Source: Gemmatimonadota bacterium (GTDB taxonomy: Bacteria; Gemmatimonadota; Gemmatimonadetes; Gemmatimonadales; Gemmatimonadaceae). From it: a DNA stretch of 64,000 nucleotides. Under the pieces are notes generated by a model that saw nothing but the letters and a program-made list of their open reading frames with translations, was not told the DNA's origin and did not search any database. The stretch is taken from contig JAZKBK010000003.1 in the NCBI GenBank assembly GCA_040388625.1, forward strand, positions 310,001 to 374,000, read 5' to 3'. Positions 24,216 to 29,697 of the stretch are shown in pieces (the first letter of the stretch is position 1; every line of letters starts with the position of its first letter). The translations under genes were made by a program, and so were the position numbers.

Positions 24216-27200
24216 GTGGACTCTCTCACTCACGCCGCACGGATCATTGACGCCACCGCTCACGAGGGTGGCATGGACGCGCTCCTCGCGACTCTGGGCT
24301 TCACCGACCGCCCACATCCGCTCGATGCTGCGTCGCGAGATCGACTCGGACTTCCCACCGCAATACTCTCAGCCCGCATAAGCTCTGGCGAGGGATCGTT
24401 GCGCGCCCTGAGCGCAGAGATCGAACAGACTGCGAGCGTGCGGGACGTAATAACGGTCATCGCGCGCCAGCTCACGATGCAGGCGCCGCATCTCCTGTGG
24501 CTCGTCGTCGTCGGTCATCGCGACGGATCGACATTCGGCATTGCAACGTGGCGCCGCGTTCGCTCCACCCCACAGATCGCCGCGTTGATCTCCGAGCGCG
24601 GTAACGTCGTGGACAGTGACGCCGAGACGTTGTGCGCGTTGTCGGCGGCAGCCGCCGCTTACGGTGATGAGATGCGTCACATGCGCTGGCTCGACATACT
24701 CGGCCGTGATGCGGTTACGCGCCGGTTCTTTCATGCTCTTGCACATACCATCGACTCGCTCGCCGATTCTCTCCCATCACAGCTACCCGCCGCAGATGCG
24801 CGAGAGATCGCGATCCTCACGACGAGCCGCCTTCTCTTCCTTTCGTTTCTCGAAACCAAGGGTTGGCTCAACAGCGACTTCGGCTTTCTCGCCAACGGAT
24901 TCACCGAGTGTATCGCGAACGGAGGCGCGTATCAGCGCCGCGTACTCGAGCCGCTTTTCTTTGGAACGCTGAACACGCGGGTCTCCGAACGCGCACCGCG
25001 ATCCCGGGCGTTCGGACGCATCCCGTTCCTCAACGGCGGACTCTTCTCGCGCACGACTGTCGAGCGCATCCACCGCCACTCGCGTTTCTCCGACGACGCA
25101 CTCGGCGCTCTCTTCGGTGACGTCCTCATTCGATTTCGCTTCACCGCGCGCGAGGACGCAACTACATGGTCCCAGGCCGCCATCGATCCCGAAATGCTCG
25201 GCAAGGTCTTCGAATCGCTGATGGAACCCGGCGACCGCAAACGCGGAGGAGTGTTCTACACTCCACAGCGCTTCGTGGAAAGGCTCACCACTCTCGCGTT
25301 CGGAGCCGCGCTCGAACGCGGTGGCATGACACGCAGGCAGGCCGAGCTGCTGCTCGATGACCAGACACCGAGAACGGGCCCGAATCCCCGCCTTCTGGAA
25401 GACGTGAAGCGACTGCGAATTCTCGACCCCGCCTGCGGCTCCGGCGCATTCCTCGTCTATGCACTCGAACGCGTGGCACGCCTTCGGATCGCGCTCGGTG
25501 ATGCGGACTCCCCGAGCAATGTGCGACGCTCTGTGCTGCGACAATCGATTTTCGGCGTGGATTCCAGTCCTACAGCAGTATGGCTGTGCGAGTTGCGGCT
25601 GTGGTTGTCTGCCGTGATCGACAGCGACGAGCAGGACCCGATGCGTGTCATTCCTCTGCCGAACCTGGATCGCCAGATTCGCGTAGGGAACTCGCTCGCG
25701 GACGACGGATTCGCAGATCAGGCTTCGCGCGCTGCCACACCGCGACGCGCATCGGCGCTACGGGATCGATACGCACGATCCAGCGGTCGGAGAAAGCTCT
25801 CCCTCGGGAGGCAGCTCGACGTCGTGGAGCGTATGCGTGCAGTTGACGCGATCGACGTCCGCATCACCGCGGCCCGATTCGAGCGAAAGGAGATTGTACG
25901 TGCCGTCCGGTCACGTGACCTCTTCGATGTACGAACGCCGCCCGATCCGAAACAGCGCGACAGACTGCTCCAGCTGCGCGCCACCATGCGAGCGTTGCGA
26001 CGAAAGCGCGCGGCAATCAAGCGCGGCGCGACGCCGGCGTTCGCCTATCCGATACACTTCGCGGATGTCGCCGAGTTGGGCGGATTCGATGTAATCGTCG
26101 GCAATCCGCCCTGGGTTCGAGTGCACAACATGCACGTCGACGATCGCGCACGCTATCGGGAGAAATTCAGCGTGTTCCGTCGCGGCGCGTGGTTGGAGGG
26201 AGCGCGCAGTGCAAGCGCCGGCCAGGGCTTCGCCGGACAGACTGATCTCGCGGCTCTGTTCGTGGAGCGATCGGTGGACCTGCTCGCGCCCGGTGGCGTC
26301 ATGGGACTGCTTCTGCCATCCAAGCTGTGGAGCTCGTTGGCGGGCGGTGGCGCGCGCCAGCTCGTGCTCGAACGGACCCGAATCATCGCCATCGGCGATT
26401 ACTCCAATGCGCCCGACGCATTCGAGGCGGCCGTGTACCCTTCGATGCTTGTTGCAACGCGCATTTCTGAAGACGGAGCGGAACACAACTGTCCCGTACA
26501 GGTCAGCGTACAGCATCGCAGCGACATTTCGCACTGGAACGTTGCTGCGGAGAACCTTTCGCTCGATCCTTCCCCGGGGAGTCCGTGGCTGTTGCTCGCC
26601 CCTCGGGCTCGCGAGTCATTCGATCGGCTGACAGCCGCCGGCGTTCCGTTGTTTACCACAGCCCTGGGACGACCACACCTCGGCGTCAAGACAGGCTGCA
26701 ACGACGCATTTGTCGTTCGGGCCGGCGACAATCATGGTGAGGTGACGGACATCGCAGCGGCTGGAAAACGTGGCGAGATCGAGACACATTTGCTTCGGCC
26801 GCTCGTCCGGGGAGAAACGCTGACGCGATGGCAGCTCGCTCCGGACGATGAGCGAATCATATGGACCCACGATGACGCCGGCACGCCGTTCCGCGCGCTG
26901 CCACCGAACGCGCACCGCTGGCTTGCGCGCTCCCGGCGCGCGCTCGAGCGACGGAGCGACTCGCGCTCGGATCGCTGGTGGTCCCTCTTCCGGGTCGAGA
27001 GTGCGTGCGCCAGATCGCCGCGCGTAATCTGGGCGGACTTCGGGCGCGCCCCCAGAGCAGCTGTTCTCGAAGCAGCTGATCCGACAGTCCCTCTCAACAC
27101 CTGTTACTCCGTGACGTGCAATTGCATGACCGACGCTCTCGCACTCGCGACCATCCTCAACTCACGGATAGCCGCAGCATGGCTCGGCGCAATTGCGGAG

Positions 27201-27431
27201 CCGGCACGTGGCGGATATCACCGGTATCTCGGCTGGACGATCGCACGATTGCCCGTCCCGTCGGACTGGTCACGCGCCGGGAGACTGCTCGCGCCCGTCG
27301 CGGAAGCCGCGCGTGGCGGGAATGAGCCAGCCGACGATGACCTCGATGCTCTCGTGCTGTCCGCGTATGGCTTGAACGAATCTGCCCTCCTGCCGCTTCT
27401 CGAGTGGACCCATGCTCGCAACAACGATTGA
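24216..27431 (+). CDS. Eco57I-type adenine-specific DNA methyltransferase (large)
   Basis: This 1071-residue protein shows the architecture of Type IIG/DISARM DrmMI/BREX PglX-like N6-adenine methyltransferases. It has an N-terminal helical region with LFLSFLETKGWL and RIPFLNGGLFS. The SAM-binding motif I is DPACGSGAFLVYAL near residue 403, and the catalytic motif IV is GNPPWVRV near 628. An Arg/Lys-rich coiled-coil-like insertion of about 100 residues (about 510-610) lies between them. The C-terminal TaqI-like target-recognition region includes GVKTGCNDAFVV. No nuclease motif is evident at either end. The GTG start is the longest; an ATG at 24273 has a better ribosome site (GAGGG). It overlaps the helicase gene by 20 bases. 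Confidence 0.88.
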   Translation: MDSLTHAARIIDATAHEGGMDALLATLGFTDRPHPLDAASRDRLGLPTAILSARISSGEGSLRALSAEIEQTASVRDVITVIARQLTMQAPHLLWLVVVGHRDGSTFGIATWRRVRSTPQIAALISERGNVVDSDAETLCALSAAAAAYGDEMRHMRWLDILGRDAVTRRFFHALAHTIDSLADSLPSQLPAADAREIAILTTSRLLFLSFLETKGWLNSDFGFLANGFTECIANGGAYQRRVLEPLFFGTLNTRVSERAPRSRAFGRIPFLNGGLFSRTTVERIHRHSRFSDDALGALFGDVLIRFRFTAREDATTWSQAAIDPEMLGKVFESLMEPGDRKRGGVFYTPQRFVERLTTLAFGAALERGGMTRRQAELLLDDQTPRTGPNPRLLEDVKRLRILDPACGSGAFLVYALERVARLRIALGDADSPSNVRRSVLRQSIFGVDSSPTAVWLCELRLWLSAVIDSDEQDPMRVIPLPNLDRQIRVGNSLADDGFADQASRAATPRRASALRDRYARSSGRRKLSLGRQLDVVERMRAVDAIDVRITAARFERKEIVRAVRSRDLFDVRTPPDPKQRDRLLQLRATMRALRRKRAAIKRGATPAFAYPIHFADVAELGGFDVIVGNPPWVRVHNMHVDDRARYREKFSVFRRGAWLEGARSASAGQGFAGQTDLAALFVERSVDLLAPGGVMGLLLPSKLWSSLAGGGARQLVLERTRIIAIGDYSNAPDAFEAAVYPSMLVATRISEDGAEHNCPVQVSVQHRSDISHWNVAAENLSLDPSPGSPWLLLAPRARESFDRLTAAGVPLFTTALGRPHLGVKTGCNDAFVVRAGDNHGEVTDIAAAGKRGEIETHLLRPLVRGETLTRWQLAPDDERIIWTHDDAGTPFRALPPNAHRWLARSRRALERRSDSRSDRWWSLFRVESACARSPRVIWADFGRAPRAAVLEAADPTVPLNTCYSVTCNCMTDALALATILNSRIAAAWLGAIAEPARGGYHRYLGWTIARLPVPSDWSRAGRLLAPVAEAARGGNEPADDDLDALVLSAYGLNESALLPLLEWTHARNND

Positions 27432-29697
27432 CACGACGCAGCAGGACGCCGAGCCCCGCGTCGTCTCTGTCGCTGATGCACGCACGGCGATCGCTGCATG
27501 CATGCTTGGCGACGAACCGCAACAACTTCGCATTGGGGACATCACACTCCACGCACATCAGCGGTCCGCGGTCGCACGCATAAGGCGCACGATATCGGAC
27601 CACGGCGGTGCGCTTCTCTGTGACGATGTCGGGCTCGGCAAGACGTACGTCGCACTAGCTGTCGCGGCTCGTTACGAAGCAGTGACCGTAATCGCCCCAG
27701 CCTCGCTCACGGATATGTGGCTGCATGCCCTCGCCGCGACCCACGTCAGCGCTGAATTCGTCACGATCGAATCACTTGGGCGCACAGGCCCGCCAGTGAG
27801 AAGACGCGACCTGATAATCGTCGACGAGGCTCACAACTTCCGGAATATCAGCACGCGTCGCTACTCGGCGCTCGCGCGTCTCTGCATTCTCAGCCGTGTT
27901 CTCCTGCTCACTGCGACTCCGCTGCACAATTCGCACGACGACGTCGCGGCACTTGCCGCTCTGTTCATCGGGTCGCGCGCATACACGATGACCGGAGCGG
28001 AATTCCTGCCCCTCATGGTGCGGCGCGATTCAGCAGCGCACGCCGGAGAGGGCCCCATACCCGTTGTCGAGCACGCTGCTCCGGTGGTGATCGCGACGGA
28101 TACAACCATCCTCGACATGATCCTCGCCGTTCCGCCGCCGGTGCCTCCGAGCGACGGCGGCGTCGCGACACGGCTCGTCATGCACGGACTGGTGCGACAG
28201 TGGGTATCCAGCAACGCGGCGCTCGTTGGCGCGCTCAAACGCAGGATAGCGCGCTCGCATGGATTGCTCGCGTCTCTCGATACGGGCCGTTATCCCACCG
28301 CGGCCGAGCTGTCTGCGTGGGTGTACAGCGACGACGCGGTGCAGCTCGCGTTTGCAGAGTTGCTGGTTCCAGCGACCGCTCCGCTCGCGGCGCTCGGCTC
28401 GGCACTACGCGAGCACGTGTCGGCACTCGACGCGCTGCTGGCGCATGCCAGGACTCTCGACGACGCGCTACTCGCCCGATTCGTCCGGGACGTCGTGCGA
28501 ACGCATCCCGCCGAGAAGGTCGTCGCGTTCTCGTGCTATGCAGAGACCGCTGAAGCGATTTATCGGCTTGTCAAACGGGATGGGCACGCTGCCTTGTTGA
28601 CCGCCCGCGGAGCGATGATCGCAAGCGGACCAGTCAGCCGCACCGAGGTGCTCGGCCAGTTCGCGCCAGAGGGTCGACACGATCATCTCGACGAGCACGC
28701 AACCATCAACTTGCTCGTTGCGACCGATCTGTTGAGCGAGGGCGTGAATCTTCAGGAAGCGTCCGTCGTGATTCACCTTGACCTTCCGTGGACCGCTGCT
28801 CGCGTGGAGCAACGCATCGGCCGTCTGGCGCGCATGGGTTCGCGACACCATCGCGTGATGTCATACACTGTGAGTCCCTCAGCACGAGCGGAGATGTTTC
28901 TCCATGAGCTGGAGATAATCGCACGCAAGTCGGATTTCGCCGCGCGCATGTTCGGCCACTCGACAATCACCAACCTGTCCGCGCGGCCGAACGACCGAGC
29001 GACGATCCAGCGTGGCGAGCATGTGCGCGCAACGATCGAGAAATGGCGACGCAGCGGTGCCGACGTGATCGATCCGGCAAACAGCTCGCGCGTCGTTGCC
29101 ATGGCGCGCGCGGCCCGCGCTGCCACACTCGGAGTGTGGATCGTCGATGGCACCGCCACGCTGCTCTCATGGGACGAAGTTTCCGGAATTACCGACGACG
29201 CTCACGCCGTCGAAGCCGCGACCGATCTCGCAGACCGTGCTGAAGCCGCGGAAGGCACCGAAGACACTGAAGGCGCGGCGTTCCGGCATGAGCTGGCGAC
29301 GCGTCTGGCGTCGGTGCTTCAGTCTGCCGATTCCTGGTATCAACAGCGCTGCGCCTGGCACGCACTCGGCGCACCAGACGGAAGCGCAACCATTCCAGGG
29401 GTCCACGACGCAAGACGAGCCCTCGCGCGCGTCGCAGATGCCGCCAGCGCCAACGCGAACTTTGCGCGACGAGCCCATTTCGCCGCTATCGCCACACGCC
29501 TTCGGAGTGCGGCCAGAAAGCCGCTGCCGCTAGCGGTGGAGTGGTCGCTGGAAAGCCTCGCGGATTCCCCCGACGAGGCCGCCGTCGACACCATCCTCGA
29601 GCTCGTCGACAGCGCTCGGCGTTTCCCCGACCAGGTCCGTGAAAAGGGCATCCGTCTGGTCGCGCTCATCTTCATGTCGCCAGAGCGGTCGTCATAA
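27412..29697 (+). CDS. SNF2/DEAH-type helicase partner of the methyltransferase
   Basis: This 761-residue superfamily 2 helicase has Walker A CDDVGLGKT near residue 70, Walker B DEAH in LIIVDEAHNF near 137, motif III LLTATPLHN near 167, motif V LLVATDLLSEGVN near 437 and motif VI QRIGRLARMG near 466. The spacing and DDVGLGKT form resemble RapA/SNF2-like translocases and DISARM DrmD. The C-terminal 200 residues are helical, with no HKD or other nuclease motif. The ATG lies inside the last 20 bases of the methyltransferase gene, so the two are coupled. The stop overlaps an out-of-frame ATG. Confidence 0.9.
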   Translation: MLATTIDTTQQDAEPRVVSVADARTAIAACMLGDEPQQLRIGDITLHAHQRSAVARIRRTISDHGGALLCDDVGLGKTYVALAVAARYEAVTVIAPASLTDMWLHALAATHVSAEFVTIESLGRTGPPVRRRDLIIVDEAHNFRNISTRRYSALARLCILSRVLLLTATPLHNSHDDVAALAALFIGSRAYTMTGAEFLPLMVRRDSAAHAGEGPIPVVEHAAPVVIATDTTILDMILAVPPPVPPSDGGVATRLVMHGLVRQWVSSNAALVGALKRRIARSHGLLASLDTGRYPTAAELSAWVYSDDAVQLAFAELLVPATAPLAALGSALREHVSALDALLAHARTLDDALLARFVRDVVRTHPAEKVVAFSCYAETAEAIYRLVKRDGHAALLTARGAMIASGPVSRTEVLGQFAPEGRHDHLDEHATINLLVATDLLSEGVNLQEASVVIHLDLPWTAARVEQRIGRLARMGSRHHRVMSYTVSPSARAEMFLHELEIIARKSDFAARMFGHSTITNLSARPNDRATIQRGEHVRATIEKWRRSGADVIDPANSSRVVAMARAARAATLGVWIVDGTATLLSWDEVSGITDDAHAVEAATDLADRAEAAEGTEDTEGAAFRHELATRLASVLQSADSWYQQRCAWHALGAPDGSATIPGVHDARRALARVADAASANANFARRAHFAAIATRLRSAARKPLPLAVEWSLESLADSPDEAAVDTILELVDSARRFPDQVREKGIRLVALIFMSPERSS

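Follow-up and report, generated by a model that had tools for sequence, protein, structure and literature searches.

The window analysed here, a 64,000-nucleotide stretch of a Gemmatimonadota genome of the family Gemmatimonadaceae (GCA_040388625.1, contig JAZKBK010000003.1, positions 310,001 to 374,000), carries a two-gene module that encodes an Eco57I-like N6-adenine DNA methyltransferase (MTase) and a SNF2-type helicase (Table 1). The original prediction of two proteins of 1071 and 761 amino acids was confirmed by the open reading frame (ORF) calls; the genes are co-directional and overlap by 20 bases (27412-27431). The MTase matches the Pfam families Eco57I (1e-20) and N6_Mtase (1e-9), and the helicase matches Helicase_C (4e-14) and SNF2-rel_dom (2e-11). 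Across homologues, motifs I and IV of the MTase are intact, and so are the motor motifs of the helicase, distant families included. The predicted resemblance to drmMI-drmD was also borne out, as the MTase comes nearest to the PADLOC models Type IIG and DrmMI and the helicase to DrmD/DpdE. In the N-terminal domain of the MTase the sole conspicuous stretch is SDAET (residues 134-138), and no nuclease residues are recognisable there.

Table 1 Features of the methyltransferase–helicase pair (positions in the window)
Feature	Coordinates	Strand	Basis or remark
Eco57I-like N6-adenine DNA MTase, 1071 amino acids, GTG start	24216-27431	+	ORF call, Pfam, homologues
MTase N-terminal domain, residues 1-155	24216-24680	+	37% mean identity, poorly conserved
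MTase S-adenosylmethionine-binding motif I LDPACGSGAFL, residues 403-413	25422-25454	+	DPA.GSG variants kept in homologues listed
MTase catalytic motif IV GNPPW, residues 629-633	26100-26114	+	NPPW in all variants listed
MTase target-recognition region, residues 771-1065, TaqI_C-like	26526-27410	+	51% mean family identity
SNF2-type helicase/translocase, 761 amino acids, without N-terminal HKD nuclease	27412-29697	+	ORF call, Pfam
Helicase Walker A DDVGLGKT, begins about 70 residues from start	27622-27645	+	Motif comparison
Helicase motif II DEAH	27823-27834	+	Motif comparison
Helicase motif VI QRIGRLAR	28810-28833	+	Motif comparison
Helicase C-terminal region, residues 511-761	28942-29694	+	23% identity, fast evolving; no domain or nuclease recognised

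The genes around the pair encode an LD-carboxypeptidase, a glycosyltransferase, a DUF3857/transglutaminase protein, a HAD phosphatase, Bax1-I, a pterin dehydratase and a sigma factor, besides unknowns; the flanking proteins with Pfam matches are mostly of housekeeping types. PADLOC models gave zero matches at 1e-5 on the ten nearest flanking ORFs, in agreement with the predicted lack of drm and brx genes. Nor are homologous pairs always flanked by drmABC or brx genes, the arrangement that the original prediction associated with a decayed or already described system.

Distribution and descent of the pair

Of 148 family genomes, 125 encode an MTase homologue (in 34 of the 35 genera), mostly as a single copy with 45-50% identity, and 122 encode a helicase homologue. 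In a sample of the phylum, the MTase was found in 155 of 172 genomes of the order (91/103 in the window's own family and 64/69 in sister families) and in 11 of 126 genomes outside the order. The DUF499 gene of BREX-related (Hma) defence, taken as a yardstick, occurs in 10 of the same 148 family genomes and is absent from the window's own genome. Named genome records held three close relatives, all Gemmatimonadetes metagenome-assembled genomes, plus one weak match, and plasmid and phage records held distant relatives only, at about 23-34% identity among the matches listed.

Within a set of 101 loci, consisting of the window and 100 homologous regions from five families, the helicase gene adjoins the MTase gene on the same strand in 98. 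The exceptions are a locus at a contig end (L095), one with an 11.6-kb insertion inside the MTase gene (L114) and that of Gemmatirosa kalamazoonensis KBS708 (L109), which has no helicase gene. Comparison with the closest congener gave ratios of nonsynonymous to synonymous substitution (dN/dS) of 0.13 for the MTase and 0.18 for the helicase, which indicate purifying selection on both genes. Because of this adjacency and these ratios, the pair is real and recurs far beyond chance. No third component is conserved, since the commonest neighbour cluster besides the pair (HAD phosphatases) reaches just 44 of the 101 loci.

In the gene trees of both proteins the family clusters form strongly supported clades; the three f4 helicases, which do not group together, are the exception. 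Across 28 genomes, distances correlated with those of rpoB for the MTase core (r=0.84), its target region (0.85) and the helicase motor (0.84), and within the family the correlation was 0.75-0.78 (Mantel p 0.001). Mean identity is 57% in the MTase catalytic core and declines from there through the target region and the MTase N-terminus to the helicase C-terminus (Table 1). Judged by gene content and phylogeny, the pair is a core, vertically inherited two-gene operon of the order; this replaces the proposal of a reduced defence island standing alone, and it is not a decayed DISARM or BREX locus either.

The pair is not present everywhere. Within the family, genomes that lack the MTase are smaller than those that have it (median 2.4 versus 4.0 Mb, p=6e-5), so the gene can be lost and is dispensable. 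Three genomes appeared to have the helicase only (G100, G104 and G147), and in all three the helicase starts at a contig edge. KBS708 is the only case of an MTase without a helicase in a complete genome; its helicase loss is clean, with a sigma-factor-like gene directly after the MTase (L109:9207-9300). In G136 (L178:5995-7710) the MTase match is limited to residues 1-576 and lies without a helicase and away from the contig end, from which we take this copy to be decaying.

The insertion in L114 (L114:4967-16605, genome G013) splits the MTase near codon 994, with residues 990-994 found on both sides. Its products are a Hypoth_Ymh protein, a 1025-residue protein that matches no Pfam family and a 631-residue protein that contains a Cas1 domain (PF01867, 3e-42), and it is possibly a Cas1-bearing mobile element. 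The window's own genome also encodes a PF01555 methylase (659-residue frame) near a 1067-residue SNF2-like helicase frame (L171, G000:C5:46504-51151), a Type I-like HsdM (G000:C6:678399) and a 1159-residue frame distantly similar to the MTase (29% over 195 residues; L168, G000:C6:515754-516830), probably a Type IIG-like enzyme.

The HKD nuclease of mobile relatives

Plasmids found in Deinococcus, cyanobacteria, haloarchaea and actinobacteria encode distant relatives of the pair, with a homologous MTase (E values down to 1e-156) near a homologous helicase of about 1100 amino acids (motor matches of 1e-98 or better). These longer helicases begin with an HKD/PLD nuclease: those scanned match PF13091 at 1e-9 to 1e-13, the domain carries HxK and SSN(F/L)T motifs, and the N-terminus that it forms extends over the 264-283 residues up to and including Walker A. 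The HKD motif was found in 10/10 plasmid relatives and in 21/25 homologous helicases of IMG/VR contigs, whereas at the N-terminus of the Gemmatimonadota helicases it (HxK...GSxN) was found in 0/96. A single regular-expression match, in L148, was dismissed because the sequence is the helicase Q motif.

Some helicases of the two other families of the class have up to 200 extra N-terminal residues, which align to the PLD domain without its catalytic residues and without statistical support. A profile-profile comparison between the N-terminal region of the f9 helicases and the HKD domain likewise gave no support, and the joint alignment is only suggestive of an HKD remnant without HxK or SSN in these helicases. 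Within the pair, the MTase N-terminal profile matched no nuclease in the PDB, the helicase C-terminal profile matched none in the PDB or Pfam, and no conserved nuclease-like constellation of acidic and lysine residues was seen in the alignments. The original prediction had correctly described a pair with no nuclease, and its suggestion that one might be hidden in the MTase N-terminus or the helicase C-terminus found no support: the nuclease lies at the helicase N-terminus in the mobile relatives and appears to have been lost in Gemmatimonadota. The best reading of these comparisons is that the pair derives, without its nuclease, from a mobile HKD-SNF2 + MTase restriction-type system.

Two further loci stand beside this pattern. 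An IMG/VR contig catalogued as viral (3300003315_000001; L223:5563-10099) has a pair of the Gemmatimonadota type, without a nuclease, at 34% identity, and on a plasmid of Euzebya pacifica an HKD-SNF2 + MTase pair is immediately followed by a gene annotated as a phosphorothioated-DNA-binding restriction endonuclease (L187:11351-12199).

Methylation target and function

The KBS708 genome (G016; one contig is 100% identical to NZ_CP007129.1 over the tested 6 kb) offers a route to the target of the MTase. Its published methylome contains three N6-methyladenine (m6A) motifs, RGATCY, ATGCAC and CCAGN7TCA, each more than 99% methylated and left unassigned to genes (PMC3974934). The three matching MTase genes that we found in KBS708 are the core MTase, a Type I HsdM and an MmeI-type enzyme in which all five MmeI domains are present; a Pfam search of the genome gave no PF01555, PF02086 or PF05869 gene above cut-off, and no Dam or CcrM-type gene was found. 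A bipartite motif such as CCAGN7TCA is the pattern of Type I enzymes, and the MmeI family methylates the penultimate A in motifs like ATGCAC. HsdM thus fits the former and the MmeI-type enzyme the latter, which leaves RGATCY for the core MTase; ATGCAC was rejected as its target because the MmeI-type enzyme is complete. By elimination in this one strain, we infer that the core MTase methylates the palindrome RGATCY. The window MTase likely shares this target because the two enzymes are 52% identical in the target region. RGATCY is not avoided in the family loci (observed/expected 0.94), and it is not enriched between genes.

The explanation we favour, at no better than even confidence, is that the pair forms an order-wide core exclusion module that arose from a mobile MTase + HKD/SNF2 system by loss of the nuclease. 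In this scheme an ancestral two-gene restriction-type system, made up of an m6A MTase and an HKD-nuclease/SNF2 helicase, would have lost its cutting domain. The MTase would recognise a fixed target, most likely RGATCY, and keep the chromosome fully N6-methylated, while the helicase would retain its ATPase motor, most likely be directed to unmethylated target DNA and track along it. On incoming DNA the tracking motor could strip proteins and block replication or transcription; methylation would then still mark self, in the manner of BREX-type exclusion rather than of a restriction enzyme. Because the nuclease is gone while the MTase and the motor are jointly under selection, the motor must serve a use that involves no cutting, and the ancestral logic, in which methylation protects self and the motor acts on unmethylated DNA, suggests exclusion; methylation sensing by the helicase is part of that suggestion. 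A helicase that depends on a methylated genome would lead one to expect an MTase-only KBS708, as well as helicase-only cases that all lie at contig edges.

Several observations weigh against this explanation. It is housekeeping methylases, more typically than defence systems, that are nearly universal, vertically inherited and stable in their target region, and with only one genuine MTase-only genome known the asymmetry of loss is weak. RGATCY was assigned in one genome by elimination via a handful of Pfam families, its transfer to the window species spans 52% target-region identity, and a motif neither avoided nor enriched bears no footprint of restriction or regulation. Structure prediction from few homologues gave unusable models (mean predicted local distance difference test scores of 44 for the MTase and 35 for the helicase), and a PDB fold search with the low-confidence MTase model returned nothing at E <= 0.001, the best match being CamA (0.015).

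The main rival is a domesticated housekeeping epigenetic module that is no longer defensive, which we regard as a real but lesser possibility. Here the MTase would be a Dam/CcrM-like core methylase of the order, and the helicase would act as a dedicated remodeller, reading or clearing sites that are hemimethylated or unmethylated, in replication, repair or transcription. Such a role would suit a pair that is near-universal, mostly single-copy and vertical, and whose target region tracks rpoB and is almost as conserved as the catalytic core, in genomes where an ordinary accessory defence gene such as DUF499 is rare; in KBS708, moreover, RGATCY is almost fully methylated and no Dam or CcrM-type gene was found. 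Against it, the pair is lost from small genomes and interrupted or truncated in G013 and G136 and is thus not essential, KBS708 lives without the helicase, RGATCY lacks intergenic enrichment, and evolution is fast at the N-terminus of the MTase and the C-terminus of the helicase. We lean slightly towards exclusion because of the dispensability in small genomes, the defence-type origin and the one clear loss, which kept the MTase and not the motor. A previously undescribed writer-plus-motor kind, in which a restriction system disarmed before the order diversified now couples a Dam-like RGATCY mark to a mark-responsive SNF2 translocase, is a formulation we put forward tentatively.

An active restriction system whose nuclease went unrecognised, in the MTase N-terminus, its 501-604 insert, the helicase C-terminus or an unlinked gene, seems improbable. 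No function is assigned to the MTase N-terminal and insert regions, and the Deinococcus and Nostoc relatives have extra genes between MTase and helicase, but the pair shows neither nuclease-like conserved residues nor a nuclease profile match, no neighbour is co-conserved and RGATCY is not avoided. Least probable is slow decay, with an ex-defensive pair of no current benefit kept by addiction, the MTase being unlosable while the helicase is active. An origin in mobile HKD systems and the losses in reduced genomes would fit, but both genes are under purifying selection, the motors are intact in distant families, and the cutting part that addiction needs is exactly the part that was lost.

Defence systems normally come and go. 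In an order of soil bacteria that are abundant and little studied, about nine in ten genomes carry this apparent nuclease-less defence derivative, and it provides a natural experiment on the role of the MTase-helicase half of BREX/DISARM-like systems without the nuclease. It predicts a Dam-like RGATCY mark in Gemmatimonadota, and a likely genome-wide DNA mark together with a cutter-less motor would form a core bacterial function.

Comparison with known systems

Scores against the curated models of PglX, DrmD, DpdE, RapA and ZorD were all far below cut-offs. Class 1 DISARM likewise combines an MTase and a SNF2 helicase (DrmMI/DrmD), and both proteins are among the nearest PADLOC models; however, the window helicase reaches 102.9 and 78 bits against DrmD cut-offs of 610 and 950, and no drmA, drmB or drmC was detected among the ten flanking proteins. 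For BREX, PglX scored 60.5 bits against a cut-off of 400, and the window holds no pglZ or brxC/pglY neighbours. Type ISP and IIG enzymes share an MTase with a C-terminal target-recognition region, and the IIG models are the best for the MTase. Type ISP joins an Mrr-type nuclease, helicase, MTase and target-recognition domain in a single chain, whereas the window system consists of two polypeptides, has no detected nuclease and has a probably palindromic target.

Core solitary methylases (Dam, CcrM and CamA) are likewise lineage-wide, vertical and without a restriction partner. The Gemmatimonadota MTase shares their near-universality, vertical descent and lack of a cognate nuclease in the lineage, together with a probable GATC-containing target, but it differs in MTase architecture and almost always has a companion helicase.

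The DUF499-centred BREX-related Type-2 (Hma-like) systems share an N6-MTase and a SNF2 helicase, to which the HKD nuclease is fused (PMC12839542). The Gemmatimonadota locus lacks a conserved third gene and the HKD domain, with DUF499 confined to the few family genomes counted above; the main text of that survey does not mention Gemmatimonadota. The HKD-SNF2 + N6-MTase systems (PADLOC C3a139 'HKD+Snf2'; Deinococcus radiophilus pRadio5, Nostoc sp. UHCC 0926 pn2) have the homologous MTase beside the homologous helicase motor. They are plasmid-borne and patchy and carry the catalytic HKD domain, whereas the Gemmatimonadota pair is chromosomal, vertical and near-universal and its helicases lack that domain. 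On these comparisons the pair would work most like the MTase-helicase half of BREX-related/DISARM-like systems, without DUF499, drmABC, pglZ or HKD, and the most fitting description is a domesticated variant of the HKD-SNF2 + N6-MTase kind that has no nuclease.

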